Shown here: in pieces, positions 5,717 through 21,957 of the stretch
Numbering within the stretch: position 1 is the first letter of the stretch
Layout: each line of letters begins with the position of its first letter
From: Bacteroidaceae bacterium
GTDB lineage: Bacteria > Bacteroidota > Bacteroidia > Bacteroidales > Bacteroidaceae
Direction of reading: 5' to 3'
DNA: 32,915 nt
NCBI GenBank assembly: GCA_017448825.1
Contig: JAFSKR010000020.1
Span: 1-32,915, forward strand
Notes under the pieces: model-generated
Database searches by the model: none
Seen by the model: only the letters and a program-made list of their open reading frames with translations
Told to the model about the DNA's origin: nothing
Translations under genes and position numbers: made by a program

Positions 5717-6760
5717 ATGACAGACAACAATTTTGACATACGCGAACAGCGGAACAACAAGGACAAAGACTTCGAGAACGCCCTTCGCCCCCTCCGCTTC
5801 GACGATTTCAGTGGGCAAACCAAAGTAGTGGAAAACCTCAGCGTCTTCGTAGAGGCAGCCCGATTCCGTGGCGAACCCCTCGACCACACCCTTCTGCACG
5901 GTCCTCCAGGACTGGGCAAGACCACCCTCTCCAACATCATCGCCAACGAACTCGGAGTAGGCTTCAAAGTCACCTCAGGACCCGTGCTCGACAAGCCAGG
6001 CGACCTCGCTGGCATCCTCACCTCTTTGGAAGAGAACGACGTGCTTTTCATCGACGAAATCCACCGCCTCTCCCCTGTGGTGGAAGAGTATCTCTACAGC
6101 GCGATGGAAGACTACCGCATCGACATCATGATAGACAAAGGGCCCTCCGCACGCTCCATCCAGATAGACCTCAGCCCCTTCACCCTTGTCGGAGCCACTA
6201 CCCGTAGCGGACTCCTTACAGCCCCCCTCCGTGCCCGCTTCGGCATCAACCTCCACCTGGAGTATTACGATGCCGACGTGCTCACCAAGATAGTGCTACG
6301 TTCCGCCCACCTGTTGGGCGTTCCTTGTGACTTCGATGCAGCTGCCGAGATAGCCTCCCGTTCACGTGGCACACCCCGCATCGCCAACGCCCTGTTGCGC
6401 CGAGTGCGCGACTTTGCCCAAGTGCGCGGCAACGGCACCGTCAACCTCGCCATTGCCCACACCGCCCTCGAAGCCCTCAACATCGACAAGTTTGGCCTTG
6501 ACGAGATAGACAACAAAATCCTCACCACCATCATCGACAAGTTCCGTGGTGGTCCCGTGGGACTGGGCACCATTGCCACCGCCATAGGCGAAGACACCGG
6601 CACCGTCGAAGAAGTCTATGAACCCTTCCTCATCAAGGAAGGATTCATCAAACGCACCCCCCGAGGGCGCGAAGTCACCGAACTCGCCTATCGCCACTTG
6701 GGACGCAATCCGTGGGTCAACCCTCACGACAAGACAGGCATGGGGAGTTTGTTCGAGTGA
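5717..6760 (+). CDS. ruvB: Holliday junction branch migration helicase RuvB
   Basis: 347 residues, normal for RuvB. Walker A 'GPPGLGKTT' is at residues 62-70, Walker B 'DEIH' at 113-116 and the sensor 'GATTRSG' at 159-165. The arginine-rich '[18 protein letters not shown]' and the C-terminal winged helix ('[20 protein letters not shown]') follow. RuvB is the ATP-driven motor of the RuvAB complex that moves Holliday junctions in recombinational repair. The start follows an AT-rich spacer containing repeat B. Its last 37 bp overlap, tail to tail, the end of the sirtuin gene on the other strand. Confidence 0.97.
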
Positions 6761-7629
6761 AAAAAGAGGCTCGGCAAGTCTTCTGTGAAAGCGATGAATT
6801 GTTCGACTTCAGGAGTCATCACCTGTGGATAGTCACGGTTGAAGCGCACCAGCGTCGTGTGAGGGAACTGAGCCACCATCTGTTCAAAAGGAAAGCGGAT
6901 GATGGCAGGGGTGTTGAAGCCAACACCCAGTTCGAGCAGTAGCAGATGTCCAGTGCGTGCATTTTCCACAAACTCGCTGTAACGTTCGGCTTGTCGATGC
7001 CAGTGCTCATCTTCCACAAAGGTGTCGTCGCACCGAAGATTGGGACTCATCAGTTCACCCGTTTCTGGCACGTGAGGCACCAGGTTGGAAGGGATGCGGC
7101 AGTCGTGGATGGCAGGAAGGGCTTTCTCCACCCATTCCTTATTATGAAATAATGTACGGGAATGCCCCGAACGAGGCTGGAAGTAGGCATAGTCACCTTG
7201 CACAGCAAAGAGGCGCTCCGTGTCAAATCCTGCTTTCTCGAATTGTCCATCCACATTGGTGGTGATGACGAAATAGTCCTTCCCCTTCACCCATTTCAGC
7301 AAATCCTTATAGAGCGTCGCCGCCTCGGGACGGTAACGGGCAAACCAGATGTGCTTTGCCCAATATGCCCATCGTTCCTCCTCCGTCTTGAAGGGGTAGA
7401 ACGAGGAGGAATAAAGGTCGGTGATGCCATACCGTTCCATCCACGGACGGAATTCCCGTTCAAATTCCTTCCCGGAATACTCCAGTCCTGCGGCAGCCGA
7501 CAGTCCTGCCCCTGCCCCGATGAGCACATGGTCAGCCTCATGCAGCAGTTGCTGCACCTTGGTGAGCCTTTCCTCCAACGGCAGTGTGGTCGGTTGCGGA
7601 CGGCTATAGAAGTTTTTGATAGATGGCAT
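6724..7629 (-). CDS. class M sirtuin (SirTM-like protein ADP-ribosyltransferase)
   Basis: 301 residues. The NAD-binding '[12 protein letters not shown]' is at 38-49, '[13 protein letters not shown]' at about 123-135 with N125 and D127, and 'FAVQGDY' at about 141-147. Gln144 stands where deacetylating sirtuins have the catalytic His, a mark of the macrodomain-linked SirTM class, which mainly transfers ADP-ribose to protein. '[16 protein letters not shown]' and '[18 protein letters not shown]' are also typical of the class. The zinc-ribbon cysteines that I expect from the family appear to be lost: 'HVPETG' stands where CPxCG is usual. The start overlaps the end of the macrodomain gene by 26 bp, which suggests translational coupling. 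The end overlaps ruvB by 37 bp. The modified target is unknown. Confidence 0.85.
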
Positions 7630-8350
7630 AGTCTTTTTCTAAAAAAACGTTGAAGATGATGGTCTTGAGCGAATGGAGCGGATAGTTGCGAACGGTCTCG
7701 GTGGCGATTTCTGCTGCCCGTTGGTTGGGGAAGTGGAACACCCCTGTAGAGATGCAGCAGAAGGCGATGCTCCGCAGTTGATGCTCCTCGGCGATGGCGA
7801 GACATGAGCGGTAGCACGATGCCAGTTGCTCCTCCTGCTCTGGTGTAGGGATGCCGCCTTCAATGATGGGACCCACCGTGTGAATCACGTATTTGGCGGG
7901 CAGATTATAGCCCTTCGTGATTTTTGCCTTGCCCGTCGGTTCGTCGTGCCCTTGTGCCTTCATCAGTTGGTCGCATTCTGCCCTCAACTGGATGCCCGCA
8001 GCCGAGTGGATGCAGTTATCGATACACGCATGTAGCGGCACCCAGCAACCCAGCATCTGCGTATTGGCGGCATTCACGATGGCATCCACCTTCAGTCGGG
8101 TGATGTCGCCTTGCCACAAAAGCAAGCCCTCATCCTCCAGCACCACCACTCCCTTCTCCTCACGCTGCCGTTGCAATTCCCTGTCCTGTGCCTCTATCAG
8201 TTCTTGGCTGACAGGATGAGGCTGCCACATATTCATCAAGGCACGTAGCAGCCGCTGCCGTTCCGCTAAAGAAGGGGGCATCCGATATTGGACACCTTCG
8301 TCCGCCATCAGATGCTCCACCACCTTGTTGATGTTTGCAAGTCTGTCCAT
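7604..8350 (-). CDS. zinc-type macrodomain protein-ADP-ribose hydrolase
   Basis: 248 residues. A helical N-terminal extension (1-70) precedes the macrodomain core: 'GDITRLKVDAIVNAAN' at 81-96, 'VIHTVGPI' at 155-162 and 'CISTGVFHFP' at 199-208. The segment 'LGCWVPLHACIDNCIH' carries C102, H107 and C109, the spacing of the zinc-binding residues of the zinc-dependent macrodomains that partner SirTM. Such enzymes remove ADP-ribose from proteins, so with the sirtuin this makes an add-and-remove pair. A longer reading to 8440 would run deep into the cupin gene. The ATG at 8350 follows the cupin stop by 2 bp and is preferred. Confidence 0.88.
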   Translation of the reverse strand: MDRLANINKVVEHLMADEGVQYRMPPSLAERQRLLRALMNMWQPHPVSQELIEAQDRELQRQREEKGVVVLEDEGLLLWQGDITRLKVDAIVNAANTQMLGCWVPLHACIDNCIHSAAGIQLRAECDQLMKAQGHDEPTGKAKITKGYNLPAKYVIHTVGPIIEGGIPTPEQEEQLASCYRSCLAIAEEHQLRSIAFCCISTGVFHFPNQRAAEIATETVRNYPLHSLKTIIFNVFLEKDYAIYQKLL

Positions 8351-8352
8351 CG

Positions 8353-8808
8353 TTACCAATTCAGAGGCTCTTGTAGAATCACACCATCGGTCATTGGGCT
8401 GTCTGCTTCGGTGAAAGCATAGGCCTTGTATTGGATGCAAAGCATAGTCAAGTCTTCCTTGCCCGTGTTTTTCAAGGCACGTTTGCCATCGGGCGACACA
8501 CGGATGATGCTGCCTTCCTTCACAGGAAAAATCTCGCCATCCACTTGATACTGACCCTCGCCCTTGAGGATGAAGTACAGTTCTTCATGCGTCTTGTGTG
8601 TATGGAGGAAACCGCTGTCCTGTCCAGACACTAAGGTCTGAAAACTGAACTCGCTGCCAGTGGCACCAACAGCCTGTCCACCGAACACCTTACCACGAAT
8701 CACCACATCAGGTCCCATCGGCAACTCATGCTCGATAATCTCACTCATCTTACCTACGTTTACTGCGGCAAAGTTTTTGCCTGTCTTAATTGTCTCAATT
8801 GCTTTCAT
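8353..8808 (-). CDS. small cupin-domain protein
   Basis: 151 residues, a single cupin barrel. The metal-binding motif is 'HTHKTHEELYFILKGEG' (H69, H71, E75/E76), followed by 'GSIIRVSPDGKRALKNTGKEDL', where the usual second-motif His is not obvious. Small cupins serve as dioxygenases, isomerases or sensors, so the function is open. It is the first gene of the cupin-macrodomain-sirtuin operon and lies divergent to the HxlR regulator, so it should share their regulation. It could be an enzyme acting on the stress compound sensed by HxlR, or a target of ADP-ribosylation; both are inferences. Confidence 0.8.
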   Translation of the reverse strand: MKAIETIKTGKNFAAVNVGKMSEIIEHELPMGPDVVIRGKVFGGQAVGATGSEFSFQTLVSGQDSGFLHTHKTHEELYFILKGEGQYQVDGEIFPVKEGSIIRVSPDGKRALKNTGKEDLTMLCIQYKAYAFTEADSPMTDGVILQEPLNW

Positions 8809-8934
8809 TTTCTTTCTTTTTTAATTTGTTAATACTATGTTTTCTTTATGTTGACTTCGCCTTAATGATGTTAGGACTCGGCATCATCAAACAGAAATTT
8901 GGTTTCTGTACTCGCTCTTTATCTTTTTCTGCTG

Positions 8935-8965
8935 CAAAGTTACGGCTCTTTTTTCACTCCCACAA
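8935..8965 (-). promoter_or_regulatory. promoter of the cupin-macrodomain-sirtuin operon
   Basis: On the minus strand TAACTTTG (8935-8942) is the -7 box and TTG (8963-8965) the -33 box, with a 20-bp gap. The leader to the cupin start is about 120 nt. Confidence 0.65.
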
Positions 8966-8988
8966 GAAGGCACAAAATGGTCTCATAG

Positions 8989-9105
8989 TTACCAAAAGGT
9001 AGGAATTGGGATGGTATGGGGAACTTGGGAAAGGGACTTTAACACAAATTAACGCCCCGTGCTTCTCCAAATGTGTAGGTAACTTTTGGTAATATGGTAA
9101 CTTTT
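8989..9105. promoter_or_regulatory. candidate HxlR operator boxes
   Basis: TACC-AAAA-GGTA at 8990-9001 is an inverted repeat lying just upstream of the cupin -33 box. Three GGTAA boxes follow at 9078, 9088 and 9096, two of them within identical GGTAACTTTT. The 10-mer TTACCAAAAG at 8989 is the exact complement of CTTTTGGTAA at 9083. Repeated symmetrical boxes in the space next to an autoregulating MarR/HxlR-type gene are a usual operator layout. Binding is inferred. Confidence 0.45.
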
Positions 9106-9106
9106 C

Positions 9107-9219
9107 CATACCATTGACTCCGCCGAAGGTGCGTGCGCACCTGACATTGTTTATTTTCTTTTGCGTTCGGAAAAACTCAAATAAAATTTTGTTTTTCTCT
9201 CACTTAATCGTACCTTTGC
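9107..9219 (+). repeat. repeated promoter cassette, family C, copy 2
   Basis: Near-identical to 160-271 and 10337-10449. It has the same AGGTGCG-TG-CGCACCT hairpin, the same AT-rich core and the same promoter end (TTTG 9188-9191, 19-bp gap, TACCTTTG 9211-9218). It drives hxlR, whose ATG is 16 bp past the -7 box. Confidence 0.85.
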
Positions 9220-9234
9220 CCAAAAATCAACACA

Positions 9235-9594
9235 ATGGCAGATATACAAGCGGGATATTTAGCATGTCCCATCCGACAAGTCATCAGCCGTTTTGGCGAC
9301 AAGTGGTCAATGTTGGTGCTTTATTCGCTTCATGCGAGCGACACGGGCGTGCTGCGATTCAACGAACTGCACCGCCTCATGACCGACTGCTCCCAAAAGA
9401 TGCTTTCCGCCACCTTGAAAAATCTGGAGCAACACCATTTGGTCAACCGCCAAGTCTATCCCGTTGTGCCTCCAAGGGTAGAATACTCCCTCACCGACAC
9501 GGGAAAGTCGCTCATGCCTTCCATTACGTCCCTTATCGACTGGGCAAAGATGCACTTCGATGATGTGGCGACGCGACAGTTGAAACAGGACTGA
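9235..9594 (+). CDS. HxlR family transcriptional regulator
   Basis: 119 residues, full length for the family. It has the winged-helix pattern 'CPIRQVISRFGDKWSMLVLYSL' (start of a longer match), then 'RFNELHRLMTDCSQKMLSATLKNLEQHHLV' (recognition helix) and 'VEYSLTDTGKSL' (wing and final helix). Cys11, in the 'CP' just before the first helix, is where redox-sensing HxlR proteins such as YodB and HypR carry their thiol; Cys52 is a second one. It is transcribed away from the cupin operon, so local control of that operon and of itself is the likely role. A hairpin terminator follows. Confidence 0.9.
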   Translation: MADIQAGYLACPIRQVISRFGDKWSMLVLYSLHASDTGVLRFNELHRLMTDCSQKMLSATLKNLEQHHLVNRQVYPVVPPRVEYSLTDTGKSLMPSITSLIDWAKMHFDDVATRQLKQD

Positions 9595-9672: not shown

Positions 9673-9714
9673 TGACTACGTTTTTTCATATTTTTATCCT
9701 ATTTGTCTTATTTT

Positions 9715-9878
9715 AGGGAGTTTGAGGGAGAAAAAAGGGAGGAAAAAGGGAGGTTTGAACCTAAAACTCCCTTTTCTCCCTGACTTTTTTACAATGAATT
9801 GAAAAAGAGTGAGTTACATAAGGGAGTTTTAGGTTCAAACCTCCCTTTTTCCTCCCTTTTTCCTCCCTCAAACTCCCT
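9715..9878. repeat. 59-bp near-perfect inverted repeat
   Basis: Arms at 9715-9773 and 9820-9878 are complementary over 59 bp with one mismatch, around a 46-bp AT-rich loop. Each arm contains an 11-bp direct repeat (GGGAGGAAAAA type) and the word GGTTTGAACC. The left arm is purine-rich and the right arm pyrimidine-rich. There is no coding sequence inside. Confidence 0.9.
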
Positions 9879-9971
9879 TTTTCTCCCGCTTTCTCCCTTT
9901 CTTCTACCCATCAAAGCACCCCGCGCATCTCTGCGACCACTCCTCCGATGTCCCTGTTTCCATTCCCCGCA

Positions 9972-19236: not shown

Positions 19237-21957
19237 ATGAAGAAAAACTTACTAACTTTTATGTTCTTTGGATGTGTCACTTTAAGTTTTGCTGGCTCAA
19301 AAGTGACATATAACACCAACATCGTGCGAGATGTACAGAAGACATCCGAGCAGCCCACCATCATGCAGGTGAGCACAAACGCCATCGTTGAAGTGCTCAA
19401 TGTTTCGTCTGCCGCAGCATTGGAACGAGCTCTTTCTGCTGGCTCGGTTCAGTTCCTTGCCAAGAAAGGCAGTTCTGACGATACTTACAACACCAAGTCG
19501 TATGGCAGCTATGGTTATTGGTTCACCACAAGCGGTGTGCCATGTTCCTCGACGGCCAGCGGTAGGCGTGTGGCTTGCAAATATGAAAATGGCTATTTCC
19601 ACCTTATTCATAACACTGAGACGAAAAAGAGTGGTGAAGCCTATGTGAATGATGGCGACACCTTCAGATTCGTCGAGATGTTTGTACAGGGTGCAGATAC
19701 TGTACAATATGTGTTTACGGTTACGATGGGAACGAACGATCGTGTTGAGTCCGACCAACCAGCGTACGTGGAAACTCTTGACCACCGCACCGACGAAATC
19801 GACCTTTGGTCGCTCCAACCATTGGTGCGTCAAAACGATGGTGAATGGCTTCAACAAAACTATATCCAAGTGCAGTCAGGCGACAAAATCACATTCAGTG
19901 TGGCTGACAAAGGTGAAAATACTATCTATCGTGTACGTTATCTTAATAGCGAAGAGAAGTCTCTCCGTGGCTACAAGGCCGACCCCGAATACGTGTTGAC
20001 CGAGAGTGCTACCCCCGCTGATGCTGGTTACTACTATTGCAATATCATGTACAAAGAAGCCGACGGCAAGACTGCCACCCAGACAGGACTTCGCCTCTAC
20101 GTTGATGTGCAGACCAAACCTTTCGGCTCCTTCTGGGACTGGACAGGCGAAGTGCCTCAGCTCTCCTACGACTTCCACGACGAATACGGCAACATCCCAG
20201 CTCCTACCAAGGTGCACAACATCAAAAAGAAGAACGGTCAAAAAGCTAATCAAGCCGTAGGCGAATGGTGGTCGGTCTTCTGGGGCGACGACCTCAACTC
20301 CGAAGTGGGAGGTCAAGATAAGGCCAAAGAAGCTGCTCAGAACATGGTGGAGAAGTATGATACCGACTTCAAATACATCTACGACAACATCGGCTGGCCG
20401 CCCAACCTCAGTGCCCGTAACGGCTACCATTCTATGGTTTATATCTTCGGCTCGGGCTTGAACAACGACAACGAGTCGAAAACTACCCAAGGCGGCTACC
20501 AGAGTGCCACGTCTGCCGATGGCGGCTACTATGCCTGTGTGTGGGCAAGTTACTATCCCTTCTCCCGTTTCCGTTCCGATGCTGACAAACTGTGGTCAGA
20601 TGGTAACTATCAGCGCGAGGCCATGATACACGAAGGCATCCACACCCTCTTCGCCGACCTCGATGCGTGTCGAGGTTCCAGCTGGTTCCACGAGGGTGGC
20701 AATGTGTGGTTGCAGCAGGAACTGCACGTGCGTCGCGACAACTCCTACGAAACCACTCCTGGTTATCTCGGTGCAGGCAACGTGCTCTGCCCTTTCATGC
20801 CCATCGAGTGCTATTCGGGTTGGCTGCAAGACGGTTCCTTTGGCGGTCCTGCTGCCGAGGGTGTGAATATGTATGGTGCCAGCGGACAGATCTGCACATG
20901 GCGCAACCTTATCGGAGGCACGCAGTACGGCGATGTTTTCCCTGTCGTCTTCAGTGCCGTCTGTGGACCTAAGTCCGTTGCATGGATATGGCGATACACC
21001 AAGAATCGAGTGCTTGAAACCATTGGCGACTCCATCGGCGACACCGCCATGCGTAACTTCATCACTCAATACCGAGCCCGTCTCGCTCTCTACGACCTCG
21101 GGGGATGGGACAAAGGCTACCGCCAGTTAGCCGACAACCACTTCAAGACCACCGTCAAAGAGGAATGGAGTCCCTATTGGATTAAATGTGAACCCTTCCA
21201 ACTCACCCCCTATCAGTCAGTCACCCGTAACTCCATCGATGGCTGGATGGCACCCGATACCATCACCAACCCTGGATGGTCAGGCTCCAACATCATTCCC
21301 ATCCATGTTAAGACAGGAGCTGACTATGCCGAAGTGGAGTTCCGTCCCGAAGACACCTCCGAACGCGCCCTGCTCTGCTATCGCACCAAGAGTGGCGAGT
21401 GCTACTACAGCCAGCCCGTCAGCTGTGGCACCATGCGCATCGACTTGACCCCAAAACCTGCCAACGGTGTCATTTTCTGCGTTGTTATCAACACCGAATA
21501 CCAGTTCAAGGGCGGTGCTTATGGCGAAGCTCTGCGCAAGCATCATTGGGACTATCGCCTCCGTTTGGGCGACAATGCACTCGCCATTGCCGACACCTAT
21601 CAGAAGTGGTATTTCTACGAGAAGACGGTGACAGACCCCGACTATGACGAACAAGCCATTCTCACGGGCATCAAGAGTGTACGCGCCAACGAGGCGGTGG
21701 CAGAGAGCGATGAGGCACGTGTGAGAATCGTGAGTGGCGTCCTCCGTTCGGGCAATACCGTCCAGTTGCAGCTTGACGGCGTGGAACCCTCTGAGGTGAA
21801 GGTACACATGATAGGTCTCTCGGGCATTGTGATGGATGCCGCCCCCCTCCGTGCCGACGGCACCTACACCCTGCCCACCAACCTCACCCACGGCCTCTAT
21901 TTCGTCAAGTTTGTTTATCGTGGAAAGGTTGATACTTACAAGGTGATGGTGAAATAG
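19237..21957 (+). CDS. large secreted protein, gluzincin-like motif, T9SS-type tail
   Basis: 906 residues; I cannot name the family. A signal peptide is clear (cleavage near 'LSFA'). Residues about 50-300 look like beta-rich/Ig-like domains. A central domain (about 310-700) holds 'HEGIH' at 465-469 and, 16 residues after the second His, Glu486 in 'WFHEGGNVWLQQ'. This HExxH...WxxEG arrangement resembles M1-type gluzincins, where the gap is usually 18. A metallopeptidase is inferred. The last 75 residues ('VKVHMIGLSGIVMDA', 'YTLPTNLTHGLYFVKF', 'YKVMVK') match the beta-sandwich type A sorting domain of the type IX secretion system. It has its own promoter and two terminators behind it. Confidence 0.7.
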   Translation: MKKNLLTFMFFGCVTLSFAGSKVTYNTNIVRDVQKTSEQPTIMQVSTNAIVEVLNVSSAAALERALSAGSVQFLAKKGSSDDTYNTKSYGSYGYWFTTSGVPCSSTASGRRVACKYENGYFHLIHNTETKKSGEAYVNDGDTFRFVEMFVQGADTVQYVFTVTMGTNDRVESDQPAYVETLDHRTDEIDLWSLQPLVRQNDGEWLQQNYIQVQSGDKITFSVADKGENTIYRVRYLNSEEKSLRGYKADPEYVLTESATPADAGYYYCNIMYKEADGKTATQTGLRLYVDVQTKPFGSFWDWTGEVPQLSYDFHDEYGNIPAPTKVHNIKKKNGQKANQAVGEWWSVFWGDDLNSEVGGQDKAKEAAQNMVEKYDTDFKYIYDNIGWPPNLSARNGYHSMVYIFGSGLNNDNESKTTQGGYQSATSADGGYYACVWASYYPFSRFRSDADKLWSDGNYQREAMIHEGIHTLFADLDACRGSSWFHEGGNVWLQQELHVRRDNSYETTPGYLGAGNVLCPFMPIECYSGWLQDGSFGGPAAEGVNMYGASGQICTWRNLIGGTQYGDVFPVVFSAVCGPKSVAWIWRYTKNRVLETIGDSIGDTAMRNFITQYRARLALYDLGGWDKGYRQLADNHFKTTVKEEWSPYWIKCEPFQLTPYQSVTRNSIDGWMAPDTITNPGWSGSNIIPIHVKTGADYAEVEFRPEDTSERALLCYRTKSGECYYSQPVSCGTMRIDLTPKPANGVIFCVVINTEYQFKGGAYGEALRKHHWDYRLRLGDNALAIADTYQKWYFYEKTVTDPDYDEQAILTGIKSVRANEAVAESDEARVRIVSGVLRSGNTVQLQLDGVEPSEVKVHMIGLSGIVMDAAPLRADGTYTLPTNLTHGLYFVKFVYRGKVDTYKVMVK

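Follow-up and report, generated by a model that had tools for sequence, protein, structure and literature searches.

To our knowledge, GcvH-L is the only target known for the class M sirtuins (SirTMs). According to the main texts of two papers (PMC4518038; PMC11490716), a SirTM and a zinc-type macrodomain (Zn-macrodomain) can be encoded as a lone gene pair, as a fusion, or in an extended operon together with GcvH-L and LplA2; the targets of the systems outside the extended operon remain elusive (PMC11490716). Because lone pairs were published in 2015 and 2024, the absence of GcvH-L from an operon of this kind is not new. Here we analyse such a pair in a stretch of 32,915 nt (the window) of contig JAFSKR010000020.1 from assembly GCA_017448825.1, the metagenome-assembled genome (MAG), 86% complete, of a Bacteroidaceae bacterium. 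What is new is that, across 80 loci, the SirTM/Zn-macrodomain pair of Bacteroidales sits in operons that are linked to a regulator of the HxlR family and contain interchangeable partners. The main texts of both papers, supplements and figures aside, contain none of the terms cupin, Bacteroid, HxlR, pyridoxamine and Rrf2.

Like the lone operon of these main texts (PMC4518038; PMC11490716), the locus in the window has adjacent writer and eraser genes, a Gln in place of the catalytic His, the Zn-Macro motif, and neither GcvH-L nor LplA2 among its neighbours. In contrast to it, the pair is found here in Bacteroidales, in HxlR-linked operons that hold cupin, PNPOx, NmrA-like or lipoprotein-like genes, and its SirTM has no zinc ribbon. 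With the extended operon of Staphylococcus and Streptococcus the locus shares the SirTM, the Zn-macrodomain and a redox theme, carried in that operon by OYE and LLM flavin enzymes, whereas OYE and LLM are also missing from the window neighbours and the genome has no GcvH or lipoate-attachment match. The four genes that an earlier note on this DNA had placed at 6724..9594 are present there with intact open frames (Table 1), and the residues that it named are confirmed, namely the sirtuin Gln144, the macrodomain C102, H107 and C109, and the N-terminal Cys of HxlR (C11, along with C52). The sirtuin, macrodomain and cupin genes are closely packed on the minus strand, with hxlR diverging from them across 426 bp. 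The macrodomain gene, which begins at 8350 directly past the cupin stop, shares 26 nt with the start of the sirtuin gene, and the 3' end of the sirtuin gene overlaps the convergent ruvB by 37 nt.

Table 1. Features of the SirTM locus and their positions in the window.
Feature	Position	Strand	Basis
Predicted class M sirtuin (SirTM), 301 aa; Q144, N125, R199; without zinc-ribbon cysteines	6724..7629	-	open frame, structural-relative alignment
Zinc-type macrodomain (protein-ADP-ribose hydrolase family), 248 aa; C102, H107, C109 plus D111, H115	7604..8350	-	NF003163, solved relatives
Cupin, 151 aa; HxH..EE kept in what we take to be the first motif; region taken as the second motif (PDGKR) without His	8353..8808	-	Cupin_2 match
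-7 element of the cupin operon, GTAACTTTGCA, presumably of Bacteroidota type	8933..8943	-	intergenic-region alignment
Operator-like footprint, TACCTTTTGGTAACTATGAGACCATTTTGTGCCTTCTTG, imperfect inverted repeat	8963..9001	-	intergenic-region alignment
Likely -7 element of hxlR, TACCTTTGC (promoter type presumed)	9211..9219	+	sequence alone
HxlR-family regulator, 119 aa; conserved C11 and C52	9235..9594	+	PF01638

A scan of named genomes found 387 relatives, of which the 80 most similar to the window sirtuin make up the loci studied here; their gene arrangements rest on tblastn. All are titled Bacteroidetes, Bacteroidales or families or genera within Bacteroidales. They come mostly from rumen and other ruminant-gut MAGs, whereas the first description of SirTMs calls them predominant in pathogens (main text of PMC4518038); named strains among them include Bacteroidales bacterium KHT7, Segatella albensis DSM 11370 and Prevotella micans DSM 21469. 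The macrodomain is in the locus in 76 of the 80. In 35 the macrodomain, the cupin and HxlR are all present within about 6 kb of the sirtuin; the other sets are macrodomain with HxlR (22), macrodomain alone (14), macrodomain with cupin (5), and cupin with HxlR (4). Absences are partly due to contig ends, and the partner counts were therefore restricted to the 48 loci that have 4 kb or more of upstream and 1 kb or more of downstream sequence, the other 32 being dropped. Clustering of neighbour genes had revealed further partners, and in this well-flanked subset HxlR is found in 40 loci and the macrodomain in 44, while the partners, counted on the same strand with at least 45% identity, are the cupin in 29, a PNPOx-family protein (PF01243) in 15, a lipoprotein-like protein of about 292 aa in 14, and an NmrA-like NAD(P)-binding protein (PF13460) in 4. 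HxlR, cupin and macrodomain stand together in 23 of the 48, and at least one of the cupin, PNPOx, NmrA-like and lipoprotein-like genes is present in 45. The window cupin matches Cupin_2 (E 2e-13), and the nearest solved relative of the PNPOx-family partner is a NimC/NimA family protein; for the lipoprotein-like family no solved relative was found, nor any Pfam match in the one member scanned. The earlier note had proposed a four-gene HxlR/cupin/macrodomain/sirtuin module of Bacteroidetes. What stands is an HxlR-linked SirTM/Zn-macrodomain module without GcvH-L or LplA2, whose four genes often come together but do not form a fixed unit: in the window's genus HxlR and cupin occur without the pair, and elsewhere the pair occurs without the cupin, having an NmrA-like, PNPOx or lipoprotein-like gene instead.

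A cupin was found in 13 of 45 genomes of the window's genus. Two members (G308, G309) have the order cupin-macrodomain-sirtuin with no HxlR next door. Others have a divergent HxlR-cupin arrangement, often followed by PNPOx, with no SirTM/macrodomain pair in the locus, and four of these HxlR-cupin genomes (G262, G197, G063, G098) gave no sirtuin match genome-wide. An HxlR-cupin-PNPOx unit has therefore either gained the pair or lost it, and this unit is seen without sirtuin or macrodomain at the loci L054, L055, L056 and L058 of the genus. The window's own genome has the cupin and no PNPOx match, and in P. micans, where no cupin match was found, the SirTM and macrodomain are joined by HxlR and PNPOx. 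On the sirtuin tree (87 rows, a quick method, 24 of 84 inner branches weakly supported), the minimum number of state changes, counted without a shuffled control, is 7 for the cupin, 7 for PNPOx (taking in a weak opposite-strand match), 9 for the lipoprotein, 4 for NmrA and 8 for the HxlR type. These repeated changes indicate that the partner association has been reshuffled yet kept, and the recurrence of the same families together in many Bacteroidales is more than chance. At one locus, fetched as L085 and L024, SnoaL-like, flavodoxin, aldo/keto reductase and SDR genes stand in a row upstream of lipoprotein-macrodomain-SirTM.

The window regulator (PF01638, E 2e-30) combines the winged helix with a conserved N-terminal Cys, as do Bacillus HxlR, YodB and HypR, the thiol-based regulators of the HxlR/DUF24 family. 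Cys11 is present in 32 of 33 type-1 rows, the remaining row having a gap. The divergent HxlR operons share a footprint, TACTTTTTGGTAACTATnnnACCAAAAAGTGCCTTCTTG, followed after 20 nt by TAnnTTTGCA, and this footprint is present whether the first gene is the cupin, NmrA or the lipoprotein; in the window its CTTCTTG stands where a -33 element would. Over 26 intergenic regions (the long one of L101 was left out), average identity is 77% in the footprint columns, 57% in the other columns and 92% in the -7 element, but the stretch was chosen for being conserved, so that the contrast of 77% with 57% is descriptive. Parts of the footprint vary in L059, L107, L026 and the L074/L080/L077/L068 group. The spacing from CTTCTTG to TAnnTTTGC is 20 nt in all 24 places with both ends found. 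In L065 and L066 the footprint is kept though HxlR is not adjacent; the same contigs carry HxlR orthologues (89%) at distances of about 6.5 and 9 kb. At up to three mismatches, the pattern found 16 sites in 12 genomes, one or two per genome, against a single site for the reversed control. Most of these sites are those from which the pattern was derived; of the extra ones, three belong to module genes (one each at an HxlR-cupin unit, a cupin-PNPOx unit and an NmrA gene), whereas a site in L169, with three mismatches, is not accompanied by any module gene. Operons with a second HxlR type, which is co-directional, have a related but distinct upstream consensus ending in GGGTACCTTCTTGC, and a variant of its TACCTTCTTG core occurs in 28 of 34 upstream regions. 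Together these observations support control by HxlR independently of gene order, with HxlR itself as the candidate binder. Of the redox control by HxlR that had been suggested for the window, the HxlR part is thus backed by a phylogenetic footprint, and the redox inducer is presumed.

Part of PMC7835342 describes formaldehyde sensing by Bacillus HxlR through a Cys11-Lys13 pair; residue 13 of the window HxlR is Ile, and this mechanism was rejected for it. BmoR of B. fragilis was also rejected as a related regulon, as the BmoR paper contains none of the terms cupin, HxlR, NmrA, pyridoxamine and flavodoxin.

The window sirtuin has no Pfam match at E 0.1, and its best solved relative is the SirTM of Streptococcus pyogenes, SpySirTM (5a3a, E 4e-44). 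Its N125, Q144 and R199 align with Asn118, Gln137 and Arg192 of SpySirTM, mutation of which dramatically lowers ADP-ribosylation (main text of PMC4518038). These three residues are invariant across a 36-row sirtuin alignment, and the Gln that replaces the catalytic His in the QG motif is found in all 87 rows of the sirtuin tree, where, as in the macrodomain rows, a few rows are one locus fetched twice. Having the Gln-for-His exchange, the linkage to a Zn-macrodomain and the three residues for mono-ADP-ribosylation, the window sirtuin is predicted to be a SirTM ADP-ribosyl transferase. It does lack a usual sirtuin trait, the four-Cys zinc ribbon of the small domain, which in SpySirTM coordinates zinc (main text of PMC4518038). 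At most one of the four Cys is left in any of the 82 Bacteroidales tree rows, and all five outgroup SirTMs keep four. All four are also kept in L027 (G242) and L028 (G196), family members outside the sirtuin tree, and the loss therefore belongs to one clade and not to all Bacteroidales. Both have an open SirTM frame; the macrodomain gene is partly found near the contig end in L027 and broken in L028.

Five further loci, L029 to L033 (in G140, G112, G069, G224 and G261, respectively), have two neighbouring sirtuin-like genes, the first with Gln (QGD) and the zinc-ribbon Cys, the second with Glu (EG) at that place. In L029 an AraC-type regulator (Pfam) lies upstream of the two genes and a Fic protein after them; proteins similar to the regulator occur in L030, L031 and L032, and proteins similar to Fic in L030 and L032. 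In L033 a weak GNAT-like gene and a cupin are present. These gene pairs look like another sirtuin system.

The window macrodomain scores 334 bits against NCBIfam NF003163 (protein-ADP-ribose hydrolase; cut-off 272), and its closest solved relatives are 8rsi, 5kiv, 8rsl and 8rsm. It has both marks of a Zn-macrodomain, the Cys/His/Cys zinc ligands of the catalytic loop (C102, H107, C109) and the Dx3H motif (D111, H115), and C102, H107, C109 and D111 are present in 83 of 83 macrodomain rows. The protein is a predicted remover of ADP-ribose. In the main text of PMC11490716, Zn-macrodomains are the only family known to cleave cysteine-ADP-ribose.

Profile searches of the window's own genome gave no match to GCV_H and none to the LplA/LipB catalytic domain (LplA-B_cat), which extends to the whole assembly the absence of GcvH-L and LplA2 that the earlier note had seen beside the pair. 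Among the 80 SirTM genomes, LplA-B_cat was searched in 6 and GCV_H in 26. The LplA-B_cat profile had no match in five of the six (the window's own, G325, G326, KHT7 and S. albensis), and these five also lack GcvH; in the sixth, P. micans, GcvH and an LplA-type domain are both present. In control genomes the same profile matched 13 of 14, a Bacteroides included. The KHT7 record is not marked as a MAG, and the sirtuin and macrodomain matches of S. albensis DSM 11370 hold no stops. Lipoyl-GcvH-L is very unlikely to be the target in these five genomes, barring gaps that hide both kinds of gene in all of them. For the window's genome the candidacy of any lipoyl-dependent target is weakened by the two negative searches, and GCV_H had no match in 8 of the 26 genomes.

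We therefore favour, with a probability of roughly 0.65, a stress operon in which a thiol-bearing HxlR would switch the cupin, Zn-macrodomain and SirTM genes, for a reversible and lipoate-independent ADP-ribosylation of a protein encoded elsewhere. Under electrophile or oxidant stress, HxlR would act via the operator at 8963-9001 and turn on a single cupin, Zn-macrodomain and SirTM transcript. The SirTM would then use NAD+ to ADP-ribosylate a protein, a modification that the Zn-macrodomain would take off again. The cupin, PNPOx, NmrA-like and lipoprotein-like proteins, and more distantly flavodoxin and aldo/keto reductase, may be co-regulated detoxification partners. The target is most likely not lipoyl-GcvH-L, because neither GcvH nor a lipoate-attaching enzyme was found in the genome, and it is most likely encoded outside the operon, because no neighbouring gene is constant across the relatives. 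The target question has become directly testable, as there are genomes in which no lipoate-attaching enzyme was found (S. albensis DSM 11370, KHT7), a candidate regulator with its operator, and a shortlist of partners.

Several points weigh against this reading. The window's genome is 86% complete, and the LplA search covers six genomes. GcvH is over the cut-off in 16 of the 26 SirTM genomes, so that some of them may have a lipoyl target, and since the 82 Bacteroidales tree rows lack a zinc ribbon, the SirTM activity itself may differ. HxlR is absent from 8 of the 48 well-flanked loci, and 3 (L086, L092, L105) have no partner; the sole partner-like match of L086 is a 30%-identical PNPOx on the opposite strand, not counted among the 45. 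Four of the 80 loci (L099, L118, L129, L133) have a SirTM without a macrodomain in the locus; in these the SirTM stands with cupin and HxlR. The footprint could serve another regulator, and the stress switch as a whole is drawn from sequence comparison.

In favour of the cupin itself, proposed earlier as a candidate target or partner, it is the commonest neighbour after the macrodomain and HxlR, and in 42 of 44 loci it is 75-97% identical to that of the window, compared with 54-88% for the sirtuins across the 80 loci. However, 36 of the 80 SirTM loci have no cupin nearby; a strong match lies elsewhere in 14 of these genomes and a weak one in 2, and the remaining 20, P. micans included, have no match; in the genus, moreover, cupin and HxlR are also kept at loci without the pair. 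We consider the cupin an improbable target. In all, 58 of the SirTM genomes have a cupin and 22 have no strong match, some perhaps through incompleteness, which weakens the cupin as a constant partner and led us to reject it as a universal target.

DarT/DarG offers the comparison for a toxin-antitoxin-like pair, in which the macrodomain would serve as the antidote to the SirTM, a modifier that consumes NAD and does harm. The two genes overlap or abut, and their spread is patchy: any sirtuin match occurs in 15 of 301 genomes of the window's family, and among 395 sampled Bacteroidota genomes the window's own is alone in having one at E 1e-30. Yet three of the four sirtuin matches at the macrodomain-less loci are free of stops, in L143 the macrodomain lies about 5 kb from the SirTM on the opposite strand, and characterised SirTMs are substrate-specific (main text of PMC4518038), all of which makes an antidote role unlikely. 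Eight of the 301 family genomes, the window's included, have a long sirtuin match at 51% identity or more, G196 with its broken and G242 with its partial macrodomain gene among them, and sirtuin fragments remain in G192 and G031. A phage or viral origin was rejected, as a scan of viral contigs gave 28 pattern matches and no relatives, and phage records gave three matches, one of 93% coverage at 29.5% identity and two partial.

A long shot is a lipoate-free circuit directed at thiols, in which the SirTM would cap a reactive Cys, either in the HxlR sensor or in some redox protein induced along with the operon, and the Zn-macrodomain would release it, as a reversible NAD-dependent brake on the electrophile response. 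If so, the NmrA/PNPOx versions with Rrf2 or HxlR neighbours in Firmicutes and Treponema, described below, would be the same circuit with another sensor.

Quite unlikely, too, is passive hitchhiking, with the pair carried behind an HxlR-cupin promoter and no functional link. It would suit the HxlR-cupin loci of the genus that lack the pair, but the sirtuin tree shows the association in separate clades, and it is seen again with a second HxlR type, the two types differing in their upstream consensus. Least probable of all is a lipoylated target other than GcvH-L, for although lipoylation of GcvH-L strongly stimulates its modification in the known system (main text of PMC4518038) and P. micans would be equipped for it, five of six SirTM genomes have no lipoate ligase/lipoyltransferase catalytic domain by a profile that recognises nearly all controls.

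Outside Bacteroidales, six of 28 plasmid records with a match were examined. The Enterococcus casseliflavus record has an Rrf2 regulator, NmrA-like, macrodomain, SirTM and PNPOx genes; Treponema saccharophilum has NmrA-like, PNPOx, Rrf2, SirTM and macrodomain; and Niallia taxi has Rrf2, a flavodoxin-fold oxidoreductase, NmrA-like, SirTM and macrodomain. The pair is accompanied by a nitroreductase and PNPOx-4Fe4S in Roseburia and by a flavodoxin-fold oxidoreductase in Vibrio, while Subdoligranulum has SirTM and macrodomain with no such redox gene. HxlR-family matches lie within about 3 kb of the pair, not directly beside it, in the Enterococcus, Roseburia and Subdoligranulum stretches. Lone pairs may in general stand in a context of redox genes, although six records are a small sample.

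Elsewhere in the window, a 906-aa open frame at 19237-21957 has no Pfam match at E 0.001. Between hxlR and topA, at 9715-9878, lies an inverted repeat with 81-nt arms that are 90% complementary and 2 nt apart, and the RNA fold of 9700-9910 has an energy of -118.8 kcal/mol (z -15).

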